38,941 nucleotides of DNA from Candidatus Curtissbacteria bacterium RIFCSPLOWO2_02_FULL_40_11 (GTDB taxonomy: Bacteria; Patescibacteriota; Microgenomatia; Curtissbacterales; GWA2-41-24), in contig MFBV01000044.1 of assembly GCA_001776505.1 (NCBI GenBank), positions 1 to 38,941 of the forward strand, given 5' to 3'. The notes under the pieces are model-generated. The model had not been told where the DNA came from. It saw nothing but the letters and a program-made list of their open reading frames with translations, and did not search any database. Below are positions 4,353 through 37,381 of this stretch, one piece after another; the stretch's first letter is position 1, and every line of letters starts with the position of its first letter. The translations under genes were made by a program, and so were the position numbers.

Positions 4353-4440
4353 TTAGATGAGGTAATGAGGAGTTAGAAATCGGAAAGTGAGAATCATAAA
4401 TGGTTCTTACTTCTCAACTTCCAACAACTCTTACCTAATC
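4353..4440. repeat. Long imperfect hairpin between rpsO and pnp
   Basis: AGGTAATGAGGAGTT...GAGAATCAT pairs imperfectly with ATGGTTCTTACTTCTC...AACTCTTACCT. Confidence 0.5.
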
Positions 4441-4499
4441 CTTAGTTATTTACCTCGTTATTATACTACAAACTTCCGAGGACTAAAAGTCCTCAGCTT

Positions 4500-4549
4500 T
4501 ATTTCTAGGTTAATCCCAACTTGTCATAATGTCTTTTAGACCGCTCGCG
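4500..4549 (-). pseudogene. Second displaced, degenerate rpsO 3' tail (copy 3)
   Basis: Minus strand AAAGACATTATGACAAGTTGGGATTAACCTAG aligns with rpsO end AAAGATATTATTGATAAACTAGGCTTGCCGAAATAA (DKLGL conserved) with indels. Confidence 0.6.
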
Positions 4550-4570
4550 TTCGCAAGGACATTACCTTAT

Positions 4571-4622
4571 TACTTAGGTAAACCCAATTTATCTATTATA
4601 TCCTTTATTAAGAACGGCGCAC
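4571..4622 (-). pseudogene. First displaced rpsO 3' tail (copy 2)
   Basis: Minus strand GCGCCGTTCTTAATAAAGGATATAATAGATAAATTGGGTTTACCTAAGTAA = [16 protein letters not shown], versus true end [16 protein letters not shown]; mostly synonymous differences. Confidence 0.9.
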
Positions 4623-4646
4623 TATTGAAACAACGATTTCAATAGT
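4621..4646 (-). repeat. 26-nt hairpin, 10-bp perfect stem with TCGTTG loop
   Basis: ACTATTGAAA-TCGTTG-TTTCAATAGT on the minus (rpsO coding) strand. Confidence 0.85.
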
Positions 4647-4668
4647 AGTGTAGTCCTTAGCAAAGATA

Positions 4669-4938
4669 TTATTTCGGCAAGCCTAGTTTATCAATAATAT
4701 CTTTATATCTTTCTGGCGCTTTTCTCGTTAAAAAATGAAGGAGTCGGCGCCTTTTATTGATCATTGATAGGAGGCCTCTCCTAGAGTGATTATCATGAGA
4801 GTGATTTTTTAGGTGATCTGCAACATTGCCAATTCTCTGAGAAAGAAGTGCTACCTGAACTTCTGGAGAACCGGTATCACCCTCGTGAGTTTTAAACTTG
4901 TCGATTACCTGTTTTTTTGCAGTCGATTTTGTAGCCAT
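4669..4938 (-). CDS. rpsO: 30S ribosomal protein S15
   Basis: [19 protein letters not shown]...[25 protein letters not shown]...[12 protein letters not shown] signature. Confidence 0.97.
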
Positions 4939-4964
4939 TTTGATAGGGGCTTAGTATATAGAAA

Positions 4965-6008
4965 TTATGATTCTCTGTCAAAAGATTTAGATCCTCGATA
5001 GACTTTAGGCGGTTTTAACCACGCTTTTTTAGAAGCTTCTTTTGATTCCACATCTTCAATAGGTATTGTAGATTGCTCTTCAGTGTATAAAGGATTATTG
5101 GGCCCTTGAATTGACGGGATAGTTGGTGATTTTACTCTTTGGATTCTATCCATGTTTGGTGATTGTGTCTGTTGGTAATTAATCCCGGATATTCTGTCTA
5201 TTTTAATATCTCGTTGCTTGAAGATTTTATCGTACGTATGTCTGCTTGCTAAATTCACCTCTCTAGACTCGCTGGCGAGGCTGGCTCTACCTGCTCCTAA
5301 TTGTAATAAATGCTTTGCTACCTCTAATGTTGAAGGCGCTGTAGATTTTGGGGAAAACATTTGGGTAGTTAATTTTATTCCAGAATATAAATTGAAAGAT
5401 ATATCTTCATCGAACGGCAGCGCAAGATCAGTAATAATTCTTGTGGTCAACTCGCTAATAGTCGCTGCTTCTGGATCATCGAGTTCAATTTGTGCAAATT
5501 TCTCGGGTGGTTTGTTTTTATTAATAGACATGATCCACTTAGTTGAACTATTAATTTGCTCACGAGTAATTTCATTATTCATTTCTCCTGCTGAACTGAA
5601 CCCAATCGCGATAACCGTGTCTGGGTAAGAAACACTTTTGTCCAGAGAAATACTATCTTCAGAAATTCCTTCTGCACCCGCAAGTGCGTGTACCTTAATT
5701 TTTAATTCATCACCTTCCAGGTTGTAAGTTACTTTATCCACTGTATTGATTGCATTGTTAATTACTATAACTAAGTCTTCTTTCCCTTGTAGTTTGCCGA
5801 TTTTATCCACACCATATAAGTTGTTCGCATCGTTAACTGTAGGTTCACTTGCTATTACATTTGCATTTTTACCTGTTTTTTTTATCGACAGATAAAGTGC
5901 AAGTCCAGATGCAAGACCGTCAAAACCGCTTTTTTTTGAAACAGCTATCAATATAGTTTGGGAATTAGAAAGTTTTTCAAGTATTTGTTTTTTTTGGAAA
6001 TCTTCCAT
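4965..6008 (-). CDS. DHH/NrnA-like phosphoesterase-fold protein with degenerate catalytic motif
   Basis: Located between infB and rpsO where NrnA-type genes commonly lie; LDDPEAATISELTTRIITDLALPFDEDISFNLYSGI resembles NrnA, but the HxxPDgDa motif is replaced by SKKSGFDGLASG. Confidence 0.6.
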   Translation of the reverse strand: MEDFQKKQILEKLSNSQTILIAVSKKSGFDGLASGLALYLSIKKTGKNANVIASEPTVNDANNLYGVDKIGKLQGKEDLVIVINNAINTVDKVTYNLEGDELKIKVHALAGAEGISEDSISLDKSVSYPDTVIAIGFSSAGEMNNEITREQINSSTKWIMSINKNKPPEKFAQIELDDPEAATISELTTRIITDLALPFDEDISFNLYSGIKLTTQMFSPKSTAPSTLEVAKHLLQLGAGRASLASESREVNLASRHTYDKIFKQRDIKIDRISGINYQQTQSPNMDRIQRVKSPTIPSIQGPNNPLYTEEQSTIPIEDVESKEASKKAWLKPPKVYRGSKSFDRES

Positions 6009-20831: not shown

Positions 20832-21098
20832 ATGCCAGTTACAAAACAAGCGATAAAAAAAGTTCGACAAGACAAGCGCAAGGCTATTTACAATGCACGA
20901 AAAAAAAGGGGCTATAAACAGGCTGTTAAGAATTACTTGAATAAACCAACAGCTGCAGCACTGCAAAAGGTCTTTAGTACTTTAGATAAAGCAATGAAAG
21001 TAAATATAATTCACAAGAATAAAGCGTCTAGATTAAAATCACAGCTAGCTAAAAAATTACCTTCTTCTAAATCCAAACCAAAAACTAGTTCGAAGTAG
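20832..21098 (+). CDS. rpsT: 30S ribosomal protein S20
   Basis: MPVTKQAIKKVRQDKRKAIYNARKK...LDKAMKVNIIHKNKASRLKSQLAKKL. Confidence 0.93.
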   Translation: MPVTKQAIKKVRQDKRKAIYNARKKRGYKQAVKNYLNKPTAAALQKVFSTLDKAMKVNIIHKNKASRLKSQLAKKLPSSKSKPKTSSK

Positions 21099-21119
21099 AC
21101 GCTTTGCGAGAATTTCGCA

Positions 21120-21145
21120 ACTATCATAATCGTTGTTACGATAGT
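21120..21145 (+). repeat. 26-nt hairpin with TCGTTG loop (same element as downstream of rpsO)
   Basis: ACTATCATAA-TCGTTG-TTACGATAGT. Confidence 0.8.
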
Positions 21146-21154
21146 TCTCCATTC

Positions 21155-21254
21155 TCTAAAAGCTGCAAGGCTTAAGTCTCAATTATCTAATAAACTACCG
21201 TCTTCAAAATCGAAAAAGGCTGCCACAACAACCGAAAAATCCCCTAAATCTTAA
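21155..21254 (+). pseudogene. Displaced rpsT 3' tail
   Basis: Reads LKAARLKSQLSNKLPSSKSKKAATTTEKSPKS*, versus true end NKASRLKSQLAKKLPSSKSKPKTSSK*. Confidence 0.92.
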
Positions 21255-24997: not shown

Positions 24998-26902
24998 ATG
25001 TCTAGGATACTAAATGACCTAGATCAATATCAACAATTAGCTGTTGTGCAAACCGATGGGCCGGTATTGATTCTGGCTGGCGCCGGCAGTGGCAAAACTC
25101 GGGTTCTAACTTATAAAGTAGCCTATCTAATTGCAAAAGGAATCAAGCCTTCAGAGATTATCGCAGTGACTTTTACGAACAAAGCTGCAAATGAAATGAA
25201 AGAGCGAGTCAGAAAGTTAATTGTGAATAGTAAATTGTTAATAGATAAAAAAGATCAAAACCATTCACTATTAACCATTCACGATTTACCTTACGTCGGT
25301 ACTTTCCACGCCTTTTGCGCAAAAGTCTTAAGGGTCGATGGCAAATACATTGGGATCCCTAGTGGTTATTTAATTTATGACAGTGATGATTCGCTCACTT
25401 TGGTTAAAAGAATAATGAAAGATGCCAACATTTCTACGAAAATATATAAACCAAGCTCAATTCGCGCCGCTATAAGTTCTGCCAAAAACGAAATGGTGGA
25501 CAATATTGCCTACCGTGATATTGCCCGAAGCCCATTTGGTAAAACGGTATTGGAAGTTTATGAAATATACCAAAAAGAACTGCAGACAATTGGTGCGTGC
25601 GATTTTGACGATCTGCTTTTAAAAACCGTTGGACTTTTTGAAAAAGTTCCTCAGATTCTCGAAAAATACTCAAGCAAATATAAATATGTTTTGGTGGACG
25701 AATATCAGGACGTCAATACTGTCCAATATATTTTGACTAAGCAGTTAGCGTCAAAATATGGCAACTTAACTGTTGTTGGTGATGCCTCTCAGGCTATTTA
25801 TTCATTCAGAGGTGCCAATTTTCGCAACATTTTAAATTTTGAAAATGATTTTCTAAACGCTAAAGTTTTTAATTTGGAGCAAAACTACCGTAGTACAAAA
25901 AATATTTTAACAGCGGCAAACAGTATTATTTCCAAAAACACTTCCCACCCCGTTTTAAATCTATGGACAAAAAAACAAGTTGGCGAAAGAATCAGCATTT
26001 ATAATGCGCAAAATGAAATTGACGAAGCGAATTTTATTCTTGAGAGGATTGTAACGAGCAGTAAACCACTTTCTAATTTTGCAGTTCTTTATAGAACAAA
26101 TGCTCAATCCAGAAATATTGAAGAAGCGTTTTTGCACGGCAATATTCCATACAGGATTTACGGCGGTATTAGGTTTTATGAAAGGAAAGAAATTAAAGAT
26201 GTGCTGGCTTATCTGCGGCTGATTGCCAATCCTGCTGATTCAATATCTAGAACTCGAATTGAAAAACTGGGCAAAGGCAGGCTCAAGAAATTTGAGGAGC
26301 TAAAGCAAAAAATAGATATCAATGTCATTGCGAGCGAAGCGAAGCAATCTCGGAAAAAAGATCGCCACGTCGAGTCTGACTCGACTCGCGATGACAAATC
26401 TAGTTTAAAGCCACTAGAATTAATCGGTAAAGTTTTGGAAGCAACCGAATATTTGAAGTTGATTGATGATGGTACAGAACAAGGCCTGCAAAGGGTAGAA
26501 AATGTAAAAGAGCTAAAATCGGTTGCCAGTGAATTTGAAAACCTTTCAACACTTCTTGAAAACATCGCACTGATGGAAGGCAAGGTTGCTCCGGAAGGTT
26601 CTTTCGAAGAGAAAGGTAAAAATTTCGTGACACTTATGACGCTTCATGCTGCTAAAGGATTGGAGTTTGAGAACGTTTTTATTGTTGGCATGGAAGAAGG
26701 CTTGTTTCCGCATTCAAGAAGTATGCTTGACCCTGCGGAAATTGAAGAGGAGCGACGTTTAGCTTATGTTGGGATGACACGCGCAAAACAAAAACTTTAC
26801 CTTTCCTACGCTTCGCAGAGACTTTATTTTGGTTCAAAGAGCGCGAATTTAGTTTCCAGATTTATTGTAGATATTCCGGAAGAATTAATTTCGGCGATCT
26901 GA
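24998..26902 (+). CDS. pcrA: UvrD/PcrA-type superfamily 1 helicase
   Basis: ILAGAGSGKTRVLTYKVAYLI, VTFTNKAANEMKERV, VDEYQDVNTVQY, LEQNYRST, TLHAAKGLEFENVFIVGMEEGLFPH, RLAYVGMTRAKQKLYL. Confidence 0.96.
   Translation: MSRILNDLDQYQQLAVVQTDGPVLILAGAGSGKTRVLTYKVAYLIAKGIKPSEIIAVTFTNKAANEMKERVRKLIVNSKLLIDKKDQNHSLLTIHDLPYVGTFHAFCAKVLRVDGKYIGIPSGYLIYDSDDSLTLVKRIMKDANISTKIYKPSSIRAAISSAKNEMVDNIAYRDIARSPFGKTVLEVYEIYQKELQTIGACDFDDLLLKTVGLFEKVPQILEKYSSKYKYVLVDEYQDVNTVQYILTKQLASKYGNLTVVGDASQAIYSFRGANFRNILNFENDFLNAKVFNLEQNYRSTKNILTAANSIISKNTSHPVLNLWTKKQVGERISIYNAQNEIDEANFILERIVTSSKPLSNFAVLYRTNAQSRNIEEAFLHGNIPYRIYGGIRFYERKEIKDVLAYLRLIANPADSISRTRIEKLGKGRLKKFEELKQKIDINVIASEAKQSRKKDRHVESDSTRDDKSSLKPLELIGKVLEATEYLKLIDDGTEQGLQRVENVKELKSVASEFENLSTLLENIALMEGKVAPEGSFEEKGKNFVTLMTLHAAKGLEFENVFIVGMEEGLFPHSRSMLDPAEIEEERRLAYVGMTRAKQKLYLSYASQRLYFGSKSANLVSRFIVDIPEELISAI
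25217..25290. repeat. In-frame imperfect palindrome inside pcrA
   Basis: TTAATTGTGAATAGTAAATTGTTAATAG...CCATTCACTATTAACCATTCACGATTTACC, encodes NSKLLIDKKDQNHSLLTIHDLP. Confidence 0.75.
26324..26397. repeat. In-frame palindromic repeat inside pcrA
   Basis: GTCATTGCGAGCGAAGCGAAGCAATC...CTCGCGATGAC; encodes VIASEAKQSRKKDRHVESDSTRDDK. Confidence 0.9.
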
Positions 26903-29767: not shown

Positions 29768-30292
29768 TCAAACTTTGTAGAGATAAATTCCGTCTTTAAC
29801 TTTAATGGGTTTTTTGTCGGGGAAAGAATGCAAATTTACTACAATTCTAGTTCCGGGTGTAGCGTTTTTGTAAACAAAGTCTTCGAATTTTTTAATTGAT
29901 TTTTTTAGGCTATAGACAAAAATTACGTCGGCGATTTTTAAATCCGCTTTCCACATATTTTTTTTCTCAATTTCAATTTGGTTACCTAAACCTTTCAGCT
30001 TTGTGTGGATTAGAGTTAAACCGATTAAAAATGGATTGAGTTCGTAACCTCTTGCTTGAGCACCCTTTTCGGCTGCAGCAAAAAGCAGCCTGCCGTCACC
30101 CGAACCAAGATCTACAACCGTCTCCCCTTTTTTAATTTGAGCAAGCTTTATAATCGTTTCAATTTTATGGCGTTTTGTGGCAACGTAAGGAAGGTCCAGA
30201 AAAATATCGATTGCATAAAATACGCCCACTAAAATAACTAAAAGAAGAAAAATCGCAACGATAATAAGAAGAGCTCCGACGATAATCTGCAT
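29768..30292 (-). CDS. Membrane-anchored SAM-dependent methyltransferase
   Basis: N-terminal TM; VVDLGSGDGRLLFAAAEKGAQARGYELNPF. Confidence 0.85.
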   Translation of the reverse strand: MQIIVGALLIIVAIFLLLVILVGVFYAIDIFLDLPYVATKRHKIETIIKLAQIKKGETVVDLGSGDGRLLFAAAEKGAQARGYELNPFLIGLTLIHTKLKGLGNQIEIEKKNMWKADLKIADVIFVYSLKKSIKKFEDFVYKNATPGTRIVVNLHSFPDKKPIKVKDGIYLYKV

Positions 30293-30305
30293 TTTAAATT
30301 ATATT

Positions 30306-30354
30306 CACCTCCGAGGTGTTCTCTTGTCGCCGACCAGACTTCACCTCGGAGGTG
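30306..30354. repeat. Pair of mutually complementary palindromes CACCTCCGAGGTG / CACCTCGGAGGTG
   Basis: Each is nearly self-complementary and is the reverse complement of the other. Confidence 0.8.
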
Positions 30355-30360
30355 GCTAGA

Positions 30361-30416
30361 TCACGGTTTTGCTAAAGAAAATGGACAGATAGATTTATAA
30401 GCACAGTATACACAAG
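30361..30416 (-). pseudogene. Displaced uvrD-recB 3' tail
   Basis: Minus strand reads CVYCAYKSICPFSLAKP*, versus true end CNYCAYNSICPFSLAKIT*. Confidence 0.9.
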
Positions 30417-30417
30417 T

Positions 30418-30437
30418 CCCCTTCGACAAGCTCAGGG
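30418..30437. repeat. Palindromic repeat CCCCTTCGACAAGCTCAGGG
   Basis: CCCTTCGA..../CTCAGGG-type repeat also found elsewhere in the window. Confidence 0.85.
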
Positions 30438-30446
30438 TGCATGCAA

Positions 30447-33400
30447 TTATGTAATCTTTGCTAATGAGAAAGGACATATCGAATTATAAGCACAATAATT
30501 GCATGCAGGTTCGCGGCCGAAATATTTGGGATTGGCTGCGAAATGATTGTTAGTAATATCCCTTCTGATATTGTCTGCGGTGTCTATAATTAATTTTTCG
30601 GTTTTTTCTAAAGTTTCTTGGGTCGGAGTATAAAATCCTTCAATTCCGGTTTCTAAAAAATGGAGCGTGAGTTTTTGGGGAATAATTTTGTGGCTTTTGT
30701 AATAATAGAGAGCGTAGACTGCAAGCTGAGTCGATTCTTTAGCCTGGCTATTCGCTCTTCCCTCGTCAATATTTTCTGAAGATTTGTAATCTATAATTTC
30801 GACTTCGGAACCTTTTCTAACGTCTACTCTATCGAATCGACCGGTAATCGTAACGCCCGACAGAGAAAACTTGAAGGGTGATTCAATGAGACTGGGAACG
30901 TCTTTAGTTTTTGATTCACGTTTATAGAATTGCTCCAGGGCAATTTTACCTTGAGCTTTTCTTTTTTCTTCATGCTCAACTGTTAAAAATCCTTCGCTGT
31001 CCCAGGCATTTTCAAAAACTTCTAGAAGATTTCCCAGCGACATTAGCTGTCCGCTTTTTTTAACTCGAAAAAACTGGGCAACTGCCGTGTGAAGAGCGGC
31101 GCCATAAGCAATTGCATGATGACGAACTATGGGAAGACGTAAAATGTGCACATAACGATATTTAAAAGCGCAAGTTAAATAATCGTCGATCGAACCTTGG
31201 GTAAGTTTTAAAACGTCAACGTCGAATAAAACTTGTTGGCTCGTCTGCCAGCCGGTGGATGTAGGGGCTGGTGCAAACTTTTCAATTTTTTCAAGTGGAG
31301 ACAGTTTGGTAAATATACTATCTGCTTTTGGCTTATCAAGCGCTTCCAAAACAAATGGTGAAATCTTTTTAAGCCTTCTGCCTCCAACATCCCGTGACCA
31401 AGAAAAGTACGCTAAATCCATGGCACGAGTTACCCCAACATAAAAAAGCCTCCTTTCCTCCTGCATATGCCAATCACCAGAGGGCAAAGTTTCGCGAATA
31501 ATTTTTTCTGGAACCTCTATTGCTTCACCACGATATCGGCTAGGGAATCTGTCGGATACCAAATTAACCATAAAGACAACCGGGAATTCTAAGCCTTTAG
31601 CACCGTGAACCGTCATGACATTAACGGCATCTAAGTCGGGATCGAACTCAATTGTTGCCGGGTCGTCTCCGGCAGACCGAAGAGCCTCGAGGTATTCTAT
31701 GAAATTTTGAGTCGAATTATTAGACGCAACTTGTTCAAACTCTTTTATCTTGTCGAAAAATTTGGCAATGTTTTGGATTTTTATCTGCCCTTCCACTTGG
31801 TTCTCGCGATCTAACCGCGTGAGATATCCGGTGCGTTTTAGAAAATCGTATAAAACTTTGCCAACATTTTGGCGACGGGAGAGCTTGATGGATTCATCTA
31901 AGTCATTCAAGATTTTTTCGATAATTGATTGGCTTTCGCTAGATAATTCGAATTCTTTAAGCCCCATACCCATGTCATCCTGAGGAGACGCAGTCGACGA
32001 AGGATCTTGTGATTCTTCGCTTCGCTCAGAATGACGTCTCTTAGAGCTAGAATGTATCTCCAAATTCTTTAATAAATAGTACAAAGATCGATTCTTTTTC
32101 TTTGCAAAAGACGTCAGTTTGATAGCATCGGTTGGTGGTAATTGATAAATGTCCGATGTTATTAGGTTGTAAATATTTAAGCTATCTTCAAAATTTGTAA
32201 TTGCAGTAAGATATGAAATTAAAATACTGACTTCTTCTTGCTGATATAGGCCAGATGAACCAACAAACTTGTGAGGGATACCTTTCATATTAAGTGATCT
32301 TAAGAAATGATCAGCCTGGAAATTGGCGCGAACTAAAATTGCAAAATCTCTGTATGTGTAACGCTTAACGCTTTTTTGATTTATCAATCTTTCAATTTCT
32401 TCAGCAACCAGATCGGCTTCTTCGCTCAGCGTGTCCGCAAAAATTTCCTGAGGCAAATGCCCGACATTAGTTTTGATGGATTTGAGTTTTTTATCAATTT
32501 TATTTTGGACTTCCAATCGGTTTGGGTCATTGTGCCTAATTAAGCGGTAAGCGCTGTCTAGAATTTTTTGAGTGGATCGATAATTAACCGTTAAAACTAC
32601 CTGTTTTGTTTTTGGATAATTTTTCTTAAATTCTAAAATGTTGGAAATTGCAGCGCCGCGGAATTTATAAATCGATTGATCGTCATCGCCAACTACACAA
32701 ATATTTTTGTGAGAGCTTGCCAAAGTTTTGACAAGTTCGTTTTGGGCAAAATTTGTATCTTGATATTCGTCTACCAAAATGTATTTAAATTGTTGTTGAT
32801 AATTTTTTAAAAGTTTTGGGCGACGCGTGAATAGTTCAATCGTTTTAACAACCTGGTCACCAAAATCTAAAAATCCAGCTTCGTCTTTAAACTTTTCATA
32901 TTTTTCAAAAGCATGCGCAAGTTCTTTGTATTTTTTTGCTTCTGCTTTCTCATCGCCTTTAGCCTTTAGCCCTTCGACTTTGCTCAGGGTTAACTGGCGT
33001 TTAACGTATTGCGAAAACTCAGCTGGACTGACGTTCTCGTCTTTTAGTCTTGAGAAAAAATCTAAAATTGACGAAATAAATTTTGTGGGATTACTAAGCG
33101 GCCGCCAATAATCTAACTCAAATCGAAACAAATTTTGCTGGAAAAATAAAACTTGTTGGGGCTTGCTAAAAACCTTGAAGTCTGGTGAAAAACCAATTTC
33201 TAAAGCGTTTTCACGAAGAACACGGTCACCAAAAGCATGGAACGTAGAAATCCAAGTGTCGATAAAACCGTATGGAACGAGTTGGTCGACGCGCTCTTCC
33301 ATTTCTCCGGCAGCCTTGTCTGTAAAAGTGAGTGCCAAAATTTCAGAGGGTTTGGCTAACTTTTTTTCAATAATGTAAGCAATGCGCCGAGCAATTACTG

Positions 33401-33503
33401 TAGTTTTACCAGTCCCGGCTCCGGCGATAATTAGAAGCGGACCTTCGGTTGTTTTAACCGCTTCCAATTGTTCATGGTTTAAATCTTTGAGTAAATCAGC
33501 CAC
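30447..33503 (-). CDS. UvrD-family helicase fused to RecB-type nuclease with C-terminal Cys cluster
   Basis: IIAGAGTGKTTVIARRIAYII, VDEYQDTNFAQ, MTVHGAKGLEFPVVFMVNL; C-terminal EIIDYKSS nuclease motif, TCAFKYRYVH and CNYCAYNSIC cysteines. Confidence 0.93.
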   Translation of the reverse strand: MADLLKDLNHEQLEAVKTTEGPLLIIAGAGTGKTTVIARRIAYIIEKKLAKPSEILALTFTDKAAGEMEERVDQLVPYGFIDTWISTFHAFGDRVLRENALEIGFSPDFKVFSKPQQVLFFQQNLFRFELDYWRPLSNPTKFISSILDFFSRLKDENVSPAEFSQYVKRQLTLSKVEGLKAKGDEKAEAKKYKELAHAFEKYEKFKDEAGFLDFGDQVVKTIELFTRRPKLLKNYQQQFKYILVDEYQDTNFAQNELVKTLASSHKNICVVGDDDQSIYKFRGAAISNILEFKKNYPKTKQVVLTVNYRSTQKILDSAYRLIRHNDPNRLEVQNKIDKKLKSIKTNVGHLPQEIFADTLSEEADLVAEEIERLINQKSVKRYTYRDFAILVRANFQADHFLRSLNMKGIPHKFVGSSGLYQQEEVSILISYLTAITNFEDSLNIYNLITSDIYQLPPTDAIKLTSFAKKKNRSLYYLLKNLEIHSSSKRRHSERSEESQDPSSTASPQDDMGMGLKEFELSSESQSIIEKILNDLDESIKLSRRQNVGKVLYDFLKRTGYLTRLDRENQVEGQIKIQNIAKFFDKIKEFEQVASNNSTQNFIEYLEALRSAGDDPATIEFDPDLDAVNVMTVHGAKGLEFPVVFMVNLVSDRFPSRYRGEAIEVPEKIIRETLPSGDWHMQEERRLFYVGVTRAMDLAYFSWSRDVGGRRLKKISPFVLEALDKPKADSIFTKLSPLEKIEKFAPAPTSTGWQTSQQVLFDVDVLKLTQGSIDDYLTCAFKYRYVHILRLPIVRHHAIAYGAALHTAVAQFFRVKKSGQLMSLGNLLEVFENAWDSEGFLTVEHEEKRKAQGKIALEQFYKRESKTKDVPSLIESPFKFSLSGVTITGRFDRVDVRKGSEVEIIDYKSSENIDEGRANSQAKESTQLAVYALYYYKSHKIIPQKLTLHFLETGIEGFYTPTQETLEKTEKLIIDTADNIRRDITNNHFAANPKYFGREPACNYCAYNSICPFSLAKIT
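31974..32035. repeat. In-frame palindromic repeat inside uvrD-recB
   Basis: GTCATCCTGAGGAGACGCAGTCGACGAAGGATC...CTTCGCTTCGCTCAGAATGAC; encodes RHSERSEESQDPSSTASPQDDM. Confidence 0.92.
32970..32989. repeat. In-frame palindromic repeat inside uvrD-recB
   Basis: CCCTTCGACTTTGCTCAGGG; encodes TLSKVEG. Confidence 0.8.
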
Positions 33504-33651: not shown

Positions 33652-34524
33652 TTAAGATCTTTCCCACTTCACACCAACCAAATCTAGTAGATCGGCATCT
33701 GCCCACATGTAATCCCAGCGATTTGGCGGTTGAGTCGGATTTTGCAGTATACTGGGGTGAAATAGCTCTTGCACCATGCGCTCTCCTGACGGGTTAGAAT
33801 CAAAGTCTACAAAATCTAGAAGTTGACTATCCCTGAATCTTTGCATTACCAATTTCCCGTCTTCTAAATGGAAATGATAGTCACTATTTCTTCCTTGAGT
33901 TTGAAGTTCACCACGCATCAATATTTGCTCGTAGTCTGATTTTCTAAAAAAATCAGAATAACCACCAGTAGCGGATTTGTATAACAGAAAAAAAGGATCT
34001 GAATCTGCTTGGGTCTTGTTAGAAGAAGTAGTATGGTAATTTATCACTAGCACTGCGTTGTCTTCACTGTTTGGCCTCCCTCTGACCAGAGTTAGCTCAT
34101 AAAGGGTGGTTGGTGGGATAAAATTGAGAGTAGCTTGAAAGTAGTCTTCGTGATCAAAAACCCTCTTTATAAGGTGTGGTGCTATCTTGTTGTGCGTCCA
34201 AAAACTTGCAACGGATTCTGGTTCGTAACCTAAACATAGCCTTGATGAATAAACTCGCGATACTTTACGTTGTGGATCAACTTGAACATGGAACTCTCTT
34301 TCTGGATAGGAAAATACAACAAAATCCTTCGATTCTCTTTCTCTTTTTAACCTGTCTATGTATGTTAAAAAATCCAAATCGAAATGGTTTTGGGGAAGGT
34401 TTCTCCCGGGATCTATCTCTCTGAGTTTGGACCGGTCATCTACATTTGTCACACTACTCCCATTTAGTTTTTCTGCTTTTTCTGGATCGAAACCAAGTAT
34501 TTCCTTAACTCTCTCGTCGTACAT
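33652..34524 (-). CDS. Hypothetical protein
   Basis: 290 aa ORF with no recognised family. Confidence 0.6.
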   Translation of the reverse strand: MYDERVKEILGFDPEKAEKLNGSSVTNVDDRSKLREIDPGRNLPQNHFDLDFLTYIDRLKRERESKDFVVFSYPEREFHVQVDPQRKVSRVYSSRLCLGYEPESVASFWTHNKIAPHLIKRVFDHEDYFQATLNFIPPTTLYELTLVRGRPNSEDNAVLVINYHTTSSNKTQADSDPFFLLYKSATGGYSDFFRKSDYEQILMRGELQTQGRNSDYHFHLEDGKLVMQRFRDSQLLDFVDFDSNPSGERMVQELFHPSILQNPTQPPNRWDYMWADADLLDLVGVKWERS

Positions 34525-34562
34525 GAGGCAAGATTATAGCAGTTGAATTGATTTGGTAGCAA

Positions 34563-34688
34563 TTATTTAGCTTTAATTCTTTTTGCTGATTTTGCCCTTC
34601 GAGCTAAAGCCTCAGGACTTGCAGCTTCTATGGTTTAGACAGTCGATATTTTGGACGACAATCTAGTGAAATGGCTGTTGACGTCGTC
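34563..34688 (-). pseudogene. Displaced rmuC 3' tail
   Basis: Minus strand reads SDDVNSHFTRLSSKISTV*TIEAASPEALARRAKSAKRIKAK*, versus RmuC SDDVNTRFSRLSSKISTVQTIESHKTKGLKPKG*. Confidence 0.93.
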
Positions 34689-34716
34689 GCTTTTTTTGTG
34701 ATTCATATTTGTTATT

Positions 34717-35082
34717 TTAAACAAGCGATTCAAGACCCAAAACGATTTTGAGAGCGTCTTCGACTTCAAATAACTTGTAACTGGTAAGATTCCCTACCTT
34801 GTTTATCAATCTTCCCTTGTCTACCGAACGAATTTGGTCAACAATAATAGCCGATCGCTTGTCTAGGCCTTCATTCTCTATGTCTACAATGTTAGGACCC
34901 ATAAATTCGGGAACGATTGAGCTGAAAGGTACCATTATAAGAGTATTAGAATTTTTATTTAAAGTATTGTTAGAAATTACAAGTATAGGTCGTTTTTTGC
35001 GCATTTCACGGCCAAAACCCGGATCCAAATCCGCGATAAAAATTTCGCCGCGTTTAGGGTAACTTTTCGAATGCTTCTGCAT
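34717..35082 (-). CDS. mazF: MazF/PemK-family toxin
   Basis: PKRGEIFIADLDPGFGREMRKKRPILVISNNTLN...LIMVPFSSI...DQIRSVDKGRL. Confidence 0.93.
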   Translation of the reverse strand: MQKHSKSYPKRGEIFIADLDPGFGREMRKKRPILVISNNTLNKNSNTLIMVPFSSIVPEFMGPNIVDIENEGLDKRSAIIVDQIRSVDKGRLINKVGNLTSYKLFEVEDALKIVLGLESLV

Positions 35083-35293
35083 CTACGTACTTAAAATCTT
35101 CCTGAATCTCTCTATAAATTTTACTATTTAATTTGAGGCTTTTGATTAAGTCTTTTTTAAGGTTTTTTTTGCGTTTCAATTTTTCTTCTAAAGCTGCGGC
35201 AATGAACTTACTGCGTGATCCGCCGGGAATTGTTTTCCTGAGATCTCGCGCCAAATCCGCGGGCAATGTAATATTGATCCTTTGTGTCTGCAT
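35054..35293 (-). CDS. Ribbon-helix-helix antitoxin partner of MazF
   Basis: RINITLPADLARDLRKTIPGGSRSKFIAAALEEKL; overlaps mazF. Confidence 0.87.
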   Translation of the reverse strand: MQTQRINITLPADLARDLRKTIPGGSRSKFIAAALEEKLKRKKNLKKDLIKSLKLNSKIYREIQEDFKYVDAEAFEKLP

Positions 35294-35302
35294 TACACAT
35301 TA

Positions 35303-35330
35303 ATTATACACACTTGATATTTTGGGTCAA
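35303..35330 (-). promoter_or_regulatory. Promoter of the MazF TA operon
   Basis: Minus strand TTGACC-N16-TATAAT starting 5 nt after the rmuC stop. Confidence 0.75.
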
Positions 35331-35335
35331 GCTGT

Positions 35336-36331
35336 TTAACCTTTTGGTTTTAAACCTTTAGTTTTGTGACTTTCTATGGTCTGCACTGTTGATATCTTCG
35401 AGCTCAGACGAGAGAAGCGGGTGTTGACATCGTCAGAGCTGGCGGCGGCGTTTTTGATGTGCTTGGTAAGAACTGAGAGACTTCCGCCGAATTTGTCGGT
35501 CTCGTCGCCGATTTCGCGAAGAGCTGCCAGAATTTGGCCGGCTTGGGCTTCGATTTTTGAGCCTTCCAAACTCATGATGATTGCACGCAAGTAAGCATAC
35601 ATGGTGCTTGGGGAAACCGGGCGCACGCGTTTGCGGTAGGCGTAATCGTCCAGTTCAGGCGCATTTGAAATCATTTCGTAATATACCGGTTCGGAAGGGA
35701 TGTACATTAGTGCAAAATCCAATGTTCCTTCTTGTGGACGGATGTATTTCGTGCTGATCGCGTCGATGTGCTTTTTTACGTCTGATATAAATGCCTTTCG
35801 GTGGATGGCTTGATCTTTTTCTTCACGCGCCTTTGTCATCTTGCGGAAATTTTCCATAGGGAATTTAGCATCTATTGGAATAATTCCTTGTTCAAGCTGA
35901 ATCGCCGCGTCTACAATTTCCCCTCCTTTAAATGCGTATTGCAAGTGAAAATGTTGTTTGGGCAAAGCTTGACCTAAAATATCTTTGAGTACAGCCTCAC
36001 CAATTTGCCCGCGCATTTTGGGTGAGCGCAGAAATTCCTGTAGATCTTTCATAGATCTGCCAAGTTCGGTCATCTCGCCTACACTCTTGGATACTCCCGA
36101 AATTACTTGAGCTGCCCTATCAAGTCTCTCATTGATAGCTTTAGTCTGTTTGACCATGGATTCTGTAGTATTGTCCATGGAACCGCGCATATCGGAAACA
36201 AGTTGAGTTAAGAGTTTAGTAGTTTCGTCACTATTTTTATTTTCTGTCAGTTTTTTTATTTGGAAATAGATGACTGCCAAAGCTGCGATTACTAAAGAGG
36301 CGACCAGAATTAAAATTGTCTGCGAATCCAT
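35336..36331 (-). CDS. rmuC: DNA recombination protein RmuC
   Basis: N-terminal TM plus coiled coil; GQIGEAVLKDILGQALPKQHFHLQYAFKGGEIVDAAIQLEQGIIPIDAKFPMENF, FALMYIPSEPVYYE. Confidence 0.93.
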   Translation of the reverse strand: MDSQTILILVASLVIAALAVIYFQIKKLTENKNSDETTKLLTQLVSDMRGSMDNTTESMVKQTKAINERLDRAAQVISGVSKSVGEMTELGRSMKDLQEFLRSPKMRGQIGEAVLKDILGQALPKQHFHLQYAFKGGEIVDAAIQLEQGIIPIDAKFPMENFRKMTKAREEKDQAIHRKAFISDVKKHIDAISTKYIRPQEGTLDFALMYIPSEPVYYEMISNAPELDDYAYRKRVRPVSPSTMYAYLRAIIMSLEGSKIEAQAGQILAALREIGDETDKFGGSLSVLTKHIKNAAASSDDVNTRFSRLSSKISTVQTIESHKTKGLKPKG

Positions 36332-36369
36332 CCGCTAGATTTTAGCAAATTCGAAGCACGAAATACTAA

Positions 36370-36480
36370 ATTCTAAACAAATTACAATAATCAAAATTAA
36401 AAATTATAAACTCTTTTGATAATTATGATTTAGAATTTAAATATTGTTTAGTATTTAGATATTATAATTTAGAATTTAAT
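36370..36480. repeat. AT-rich inverted/direct repeat cluster
   Basis: AATACTAAATTCTAAACAA and TTGTTTAGTATTTAG arms plus TTTAGAATTTAA repeats. Confidence 0.55.
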
Positions 36481-36492
36481 TAAAATAGATTT

Positions 36493-36861
36493 ATGCAACG
36501 GTTACTTCCTTTTGTGTTTCTTATCTCAGTCGCATCGACATTCGGCATCTCTTGGATTGTGGTTGCTGTTGATCCTGATAGTGCGGGCTGGTACAATTTC
36601 GCGCTTTTGATTTTTTTGATTTTCGCGACAGTTGCCGGATTTCTGGGGTTGTTTTTGTTTTTTGTAAGAACCAGATTCTACAAAAGATACAGTGTGAACT
36701 GGTACATAAAAACTTCTTTTAAGATGAGTGTTTTTGTGGCGTTTTTCGTAGCTTTAGCGTCAACACTCGCAATTTTGCAACTGATATCAATTTTCAACCT
36801 AATTCTGGCCGGTTTGGCAGTCAGCCTATTTGCAATTTGGAGTTTTTTAGGGGGGGAATAA
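36493..36861 (+). CDS. Hypothetical membrane protein
   Basis: 122 aa ORF with several TM segments. Confidence 0.65.
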   Translation: MQRLLPFVFLISVASTFGISWIVVAVDPDSAGWYNFALLIFLIFATVAGFLGLFLFFVRTRFYKRYSVNWYIKTSFKMSVFVAFFVALASTLAILQLISIFNLILAGLAVSLFAIWSFLGGE

Positions 36862-36889
36862 GTGGTTGCTGGTTACTGGTAGCTGGAAA

Positions 36890-37381
36890 CTAGTTGCTAA
36901 GGATAATTATCCCCTCTCGCCAGCCACCGGGGTCTTTGATTATTTGGTCATCGCGGGTGTAGATGTGCGAAGTTATGGCAATTGCTTTGTTTTGGAAGGA
37001 TGCAGGGATTTGCCAGTTGAGAGTAAATGGCGCTGATACTTTTTCCCCAATCACCTGCCACTGGCCATCGGCATAAGTTTTGGCCCAAAACTGGACCTTG
37101 ACTACATTTTCCTGATCGTCGACTGAGAGGCTGATCGGCAAAGTTGAATCTCTGATAATATCACCCGCTTGTGGTGTAGTAATTGTGCCGCCTTCACTGA
37201 ATTCTTGCTGATTTTGTTGAAGAATTGTCGTTTGCTTTTGAGTCAGAGGTTTCGCAATTAAGAAAATAATAACGAGGCCAAAAATTACCAGAGCAACTAC
37301 ACCGATTGGGTTTATAGGCCAACCTTTTTCTGTCTTTTCTATGGGGCCGCGTTTTTCTTTTACTTCTGCCATCTCTGGCAA
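36890..37381 (-). CDS. Hypothetical membrane-anchored protein with Ig-like extracellular region
   Basis: TM followed by DIIRDSTLPISLSVDDQENVVKVQFWAKTYADGQWQVIGEKVSAPFTLNWQIP. Confidence 0.6.
   Translation of the reverse strand: MPEMAEVKEKRGPIEKTEKGWPINPIGVVALVIFGLVIIFLIAKPLTQKQTTILQQNQQEFSEGGTITTPQAGDIIRDSTLPISLSVDDQENVVKVQFWAKTYADGQWQVIGEKVSAPFTLNWQIPASFQNKAIAITSHIYTRDDQIIKDPGGWREGIIILSN

Follow-up and report, generated by a model that had tools for sequence, protein, structure and literature searches.

Duplicated gene ends, in which a live end is followed by a short hairpin and then by a displaced second copy of the same end, were found to be a real and general feature of these genomes; we know of no earlier description, and none turned up in searches of the open literature. 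The arrangement was seen in Candidatus Curtissbacteria and in other families of the same class, and we know of no described mobile element that replaces gene ends and leaves the old end displaced. The window, the whole stretch of 38,941 nucleotides analysed here, belongs to a genome of 938 kb in 45 contigs (G000) and contains three cases, uvrD/recB, rpsO (S15) and rpsT (S20). The order in the tail cases was gene body, arm A, tail, stop codon, arm A', hairpin P and displaced native tail, A' being A in reverse complement.

The uvrD/recB reading frame extends from 33503 to 30447 on the minus strand and closes with the C-terminus CNYCAYNSICPFSLAKIT and a stop codon. The locus is composed as follows.

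30447-33503, minus strand: fusion of a uvrD/pcrA-like helicase gene with a nuclease end of the RecB/Cas4 type that has a CxxCxxxxxC cluster; this gene carries the insertion
30447-30507, minus strand: live, putatively incoming uvrD/recB end, running from A to the stop codon inclusive; codon identity to G006 drops here
30495-30507, minus strand: arm A, TGCATGCAATTAT, at the junction, codons P-A-C-N-Y
30438-30450, minus strand: arm A', ATAATTGCATGCA, identical to A in reverse complement and overlapping the stop codon
30418-30437, minus strand: hairpin P, CCCTGAGCTTGTCGAAGGGG, directly behind the uvrD/recB stop
30361-30414, minus strand: displaced, probably native uvrD/recB end, CVYCAYKSICPFSLAKP and stop, in another frame than the live end; 10 of 15 codons match the G006 tail
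30306-30354, minus strand: hairpin between the displaced tail and the next gene; in G006 a hairpin lies at the same place behind an undisplaced tail

The two tails form a direct repeat of 83% identity over 41 nt with a spacing of 89. The tail duplication score was 80, a value to be compared with mispaired control tails, only 2 of 1558 of which reached 55. The original prediction placed the old tail behind a palindrome, and this layout was found again in many genes and genomes. It also described an exact bracketing repeat of 12 bp (30439-30450 and 30495-30506); these positions are right for the part they cover, although the true length of the exact repeat is 13 bp (30438-30450 and 30495-30507). 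Its proposal that the inverted repeat marks the junction held, the repeat recurring as A and A' at many genes and in many genomes. An Rfam search of window positions 30250-30600 returned only SNORD24, below the cut-off with an E value of 0.93. In-frame repeat-like peptides were seen at 31968-32036 and 32970-32993 of the uvrD/recB gene and at 26324-26404 of a second uvrD-like gene in the window; peptides of these two helicase genes (RHSERSEESQDPSSTASPQDDMG, LTLSKVEG and VIASEAKQSRKKDRHVESDSTRDDKSS) resemble translated palindromic repeats.

The two ribosomal protein genes have the same layout, and S15 carries two displaced ends.

4669-4938, minus strand: rpsO, ribosomal protein S15, named from its sequence, with a putative incoming end of 11 residues
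4662-4673, minus strand: S15 A', AATAATATCTTT, 12/12 complementary to A, AAAGATATTATT (4693-4704), stop codon included
4606-4661, minus strand: S15 hairpin P with the conserved loop ATCGTTGTT
4570-4605, minus strand: first displaced S15 end, 11 residues, with a synonymous change in 8 of 12 codons
4499-4563, minus strand: older S15 layer, consisting of A2'/P2 (4537-4563) and a second displaced end decayed by indels (4499-4536)
20832-21098, plus strand: rpsT, ribosomal protein S20, named likewise, with its putative incoming end
21096-21105, plus strand: S20 A', TAGACGCTTT, 10/10 complementary to A, AAAGCGTCTA (21021-21030), stop codon TAG included
21106-21158, plus strand: S20 hairpin P
21159-21254, plus strand: displaced S20 end, beginning KAARLKSQLSNKLPSSKSK and running to a stop

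No Rfam family matched the S15 region (window 4400-5000). The S15 layers of G000 and G010 could not be dated because their synonymous sites are saturated. The displaced S15 tails of G004 and G012 (L264, L269) differ by 1 base in 33, while the S15 gene bodies of these two, which represent two genera, have only a third of their same-residue codons in common.

Displaced ends were scanned for in about 340 kb of G000, including the window, and in 200-310 kb of the other genomes. The last 45 residues of 1558 open reading frames were compared with the 350 nt behind them, the first 60 residues were compared with the 350 nt preceding, and each tail paired with the downstream region of a different gene served as control. 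Paralogues and tandem repeats (L182, L188, L191, L249, L250) were removed from the high-scoring repeats. Genuine displaced tails numbered 12 among the 859 genes of G000, G002 and G007. Seven were in the 340 kb of G000 (uvrD/recB, S15, S20, H+-PPase and genes in L184, L192 and L194), three in G002 and two in G007. None of 302 genes had a displaced tail in G014, which belongs to the family but has few of these hairpins in the scanned stretch. At L184 (contig C22, 6726-8054 and downstream) the block of tail and hairpin is tandemly repeated, and an identical 47-nt hairpin stretch is present at C22:6511 and 6674.

Among 23 tails the arm measured 7-14 bp and A' began -7 to +6 nt from the last base of the stop codon. 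The remainder of the tail forms a loop of 15-76 nt between A and A'. In several cases, including S15, S20 and uvrD of G000, the stop codon itself lies within A'. Perfect arms of at least 10 bp at the stop were found in 10 of about 1540 genes, six of them genes with displaced tails (Fisher p = 1e-11). The longest exact match of A' averaged 8.6 nt to the live A, compared to 6.5 nt to the displaced A and 4.6 nt for shuffled sequence (maximum 5.2 of 500); in 4 of 24 cases the displaced copy was the better match to A'. The whole element covers about 60-150 nt and its only open reading frame content is the gene end. The spacers between duplicated ends range from a few to about 140 nt, with neither integrase nor cargo.

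A mirror image was found at gene starts, in the order native start, hairpin, B', leader and live start. The cases are EF-G and an epimerase (G002), a mutM-like gene and L186 (G000) and, weakly, a 6PGDH-like gene (G012). In the clear cases B' complements the live start, over 12-13 nt in the mutM-like gene. Start duplications were also observed in one-contig genomes of other families, namely in a release-factor-like gene (L252, 14318-15016, G020), where a clear hairpin separates the copies, and in a YchF-like GTPase gene (L240, 8555-9676, G050).

Orthologues were surveyed in 15 family genomes, and H+-PPase also across 280 genomes of the class. Duplicated uvrD tails were present in five of about ten genomes (G000, G002, G005, G007 and G012) and single tails in G001, G003, G006, G010 and G013. 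In G002, G005, G007 and G012 the tail is followed by its A' complement, a hairpin that is different in each genome and a second tail. The junction CAY|NSIC is common to these four and is replaced by PA|C in G000. G002 has three tails in the order A1-T1-stop-A1'-P1-A2-T2-stop-A2'-P2-A3-T3; three-tail stacks were likewise found at L200b of G002 and at S15 of G000. The prediction had pointed to the 30439-30506 segment as one that relatives might show exchanged or inverted. Tail exchange was supported; inversion was rejected, no relative having an inverted allele. Nor is the 13-bp sequence conserved in orthologues. Those with duplicated tails instead have an inverted repeat of their own, matched to their own sequence, and the uvrD orthologues with undisplaced tails have no such repeat. 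Fixed junctions were found in other genes, with K|DII of S15 occupied in 6 of 14 family genomes, IIGR of rpoC in 4 of 14 and K|DTAG of H+-PPase in 3 of 13. Outside the family (f1), K|DTAG is also occupied in G051, G137, G107 (f30) and G100 (f18), and the arms in the f30 and f18 genomes are 10-12 bp, exact or nearly so. In G051 (L355) the live and displaced H+-PPase tails are identical over about 40 central bases and differ to either side of them, a pattern that resembles conversion through recombination.

Over 364 codons, the live and displaced ends differ by 200 synonymous and 45 non-synonymous changes, with 72, 24 and 215 differences at codon positions 1, 2 and 3. A freely drifting displaced copy carrying half of the differences would be expected to give about 107 non-synonymous codons, and both ends have thus evolved as coding sequence. 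Identity among same-residue codons was 119/319, or 0.37, within the range of 0.28-0.61 for the same genes between genera. The near relative G006, which has a single uvrD tail ending in AKP and a hairpin at the same place behind it, allowed the two ends to be told apart. In the 100 codons upstream of the junction 45 of 74 codons are identical between G000 and G006; the displaced tail keeps 10 of 15, the live tail only 4 of 15 (p = 0.02 for the live tail). The displaced end thus tracks the gene body and the live end does not, which identifies the live end as the newcomer. On this codon comparison, for one gene with a near relative, it is most likely that the displaced uvrD tail is native and that the live tail came with A' and P. 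Decay of displaced ends was seen as indels in S15 copy 3 and in the PPase of G006, and the displaced start of the mutM-like gene no longer has its start codon. The displaced PPase end of G107 is interrupted by a second insertion.

The hairpin CCCTGAGC is present in 17 copies in G000 (at most 3 mismatches). The original prediction tied the CCCTTCGA/CTCAGGG repeat family to tail exchange. Tails are indeed exchanged, but this family is not the general agent and was rejected as such; of its 17 G000 copies a single one lies between clear gene-end duplicates, and other hairpins occupy most cases. The hairpins belong mainly to two families, TTATATCAG...CTGATATAA and CTTTGCG...CTAAAG; in its long form the second carries the conserved loop ATCGTTGTT. 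Most displaced-end cases have a TATCAG..CTGATA or a CTTTGCG..CTAAAG hairpin. TATCAG..CTGATA hairpins occur in 7 of 10 family genomes. In the sampled stretches, 4 of 27 lay between duplicated ends with a score of at least 50, compared to 0 of 135 mispaired flanks; the two uvrD copies scored slightly under 50. The TATCAG hairpins have inverted ends with TATAA or TAAAG on both sides, which could be a short target-site duplication. No GTAG-type tetranucleotide was found at the 5' foot of the hairpins, where the feet are CTTTGCG, TTATATCAG or A'CCCTGAGC.

Of 15 family genomes 13 contain Y1_Tnp genes, and G000 has eight such genes. At the ten Y1 loci examined the flanking hairpins, for example TTTCAAGGCCAGGCCTTGGAAGCTAAAA, are other than the P families of most gene ends. 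TTTCAAGGCCAGGCCTTGGAAGCTAAAA stands on either side of the Y1 transposase genes at L311, L313 and L314, and its 3' foot is similar to the CTAAAAG foot of the gene-end hairpins. A Y1 transposase gene (G005:C29:33642-33887) adjoins a tail-duplicated uvrD/recB gene (34129-37041).

The best explanation would be a site-specific insertion of about 60-150 nt that consists of a replacement gene end, A' and hairpin P and spreads by guided homing, a reading that we consider evenly balanced between right and wrong. Insertion would take place at A of the native gene with the reading frame kept, and the inserted block would provide a new stop or, in the mirror image, a new start region. The native end would be stranded beyond the hairpin and then decay, and later insertions at the same site would stack upstream of earlier ones. 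Spread may occur as folded single-stranded DNA that homes between alleles of related species, and A', just 5' of the hairpin, may act as a long target-pairing guide, like those of IS200/IS605 and REP elements. Candidate enzymes would be the Y1-type (TnpA/RAYT) transposases of these genomes. The fixed sites, the foreign yet functional end and the stacking would all follow if the block homed as a whole from allele to allele among related species. Against this reading stand the different hairpins at the Y1 loci examined, the missing GTAG tag and the 4 of 24 cases in which A' fits the displaced copy better; no transposition event was observed. The fuller proposal of gene-end-replacing homing elements, travelling as folded single-stranded DNA with a built-in guide of 7-14 nt, entering essential genes harmlessly and spreading between species, is held somewhat more tentatively.

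Related DNA from neighbours might instead have been taken up and recombined homologously, with an illegitimate join at the hairpin closing one side; the hairpin would then be a scar and A' junction filler from fold-back synthesis. Live ends do resemble orthologous coding DNA from related species, intergeneric codon identity is already about 0.45, and tail and start cases would be accounted for alike. However, junctions at the same codon recur across genera and families, A' begins at the stop codon in every case (-7 to +6 nt) and codon identity to G006 stays at about 0.6 up to A, dropping only in the live tail. We regard this origin as unlikely. A local tandem duplication of the gene end into which a REP-type hairpin was later inserted, with selection for A/A' as a stem in the mRNA at the stop, is already disfavoured and has a low probability. 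REPs are common near the 3' ends of open reading frames in other bacteria and even provide stop codons (PMC3733652). Against such an origin, about 63% of same-residue codons differ between the copies, a genus-level distance with both copies under selection, only the displaced uvrD copy tracks the nearest relative, and neither recurrence at the same site nor stacking would be predicted.

Both ends could also be in use, if the segment were removed from DNA or RNA in some cells or transcripts, so that either end completes the protein and both are selected. Most displaced ends have an intact reading frame and stop, and lineage-specific residues are common to both copies (KLELPK in G004, KDIIDK in G000). 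The broken displaced ends of S15 copy 3, the G006 PPase and the mutM-like start and the interrupted end in G107 speak against dual use, and three-tail arrays would require a stepwise loss of use; we find it rather improbable. An assembly chimera, in which co-occurring strains were joined at the repeated hairpin, has to be considered since nearly all assemblies are from metagenomes and P is repeated. It was rejected as scarcely credible, because in one parent the essential gene would have to be broken by P at that very point. Moreover, independent assemblies share sites, triple layers exist, and the one-contig genome G020 has a start duplication with a hairpin.

Integrative conjugative and mobilizable elements (ICE, IME) and genomic islands insert into the 3' ends of conserved genes as att sites and rebuild the end, and tandem accretion is possible. 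The gene-end elements similarly restore a replacement end of a conserved gene. In contrast to islands they measure only about 100 nt, have no integrase or cargo, and most synonymous sites differ between copies; the end lies between complementary arms, and gene starts are targeted as well. Group I introns and inteins are gained repeatedly at one conserved site of conserved genes, apparently from allele to allele. The gene-end elements recur at fixed sites in conserved genes in the same manner, but they are unspliced, replace the gene end and have no nuclease gene. Rickettsia palindromic elements and MITEs are likewise small palindromic insertions in tolerant genes; those, however, add in-frame sequence, whereas the gene-end elements supply a new end and displace the old one.

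The likeness to REP/RAYT systems lies in short imperfect palindromes, many per genome and frequent at the 3' ends of open reading frames, in a motif resembling a guide on the 5' side of the hairpin (PMC8266576, PMC3733652) and in the Y1 genes of these genomes. The GTAG of REPs has a guide role (PMC8266576). The gene-end hairpins differ in having no GTAG tag, and described REPs have neither a host gene end nor a locus-matched complementary arm. Gene-end duplication is not mentioned for REPs in the part of PMC3733652 consulted, and duplicated gene ends around REPs were not described in the open literature searched. In IS608 of the IS200/IS605 family, the target is chosen through base pairing to a guide located 5' of the hairpin, and engineered guide extensions of 8-13 nt work and give site specificity (PMC5934647). 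The position of A' directly 5' of the hairpin, with complementarity to A over 7-14 bp, suggests a comparable guide on grounds of base pairing. Natural guides, however, are 4 nt, and those elements have tnpA and no host gene ends; the gene-end elements have no tnpA, and their hairpins are linked to no enzyme.

If the proposal of homing elements is true, selfish DNA can inhabit the essential genes of very small genomes by supplying a replacement part. The elements would then represent a natural form of long base-pair-guided insertion, so far only engineered into IS608, and would leave a marked record of DNA exchange between uncultivated bacteria. They would also account for stranded gene tails and starts that annotation would overlook or dismiss as noise.
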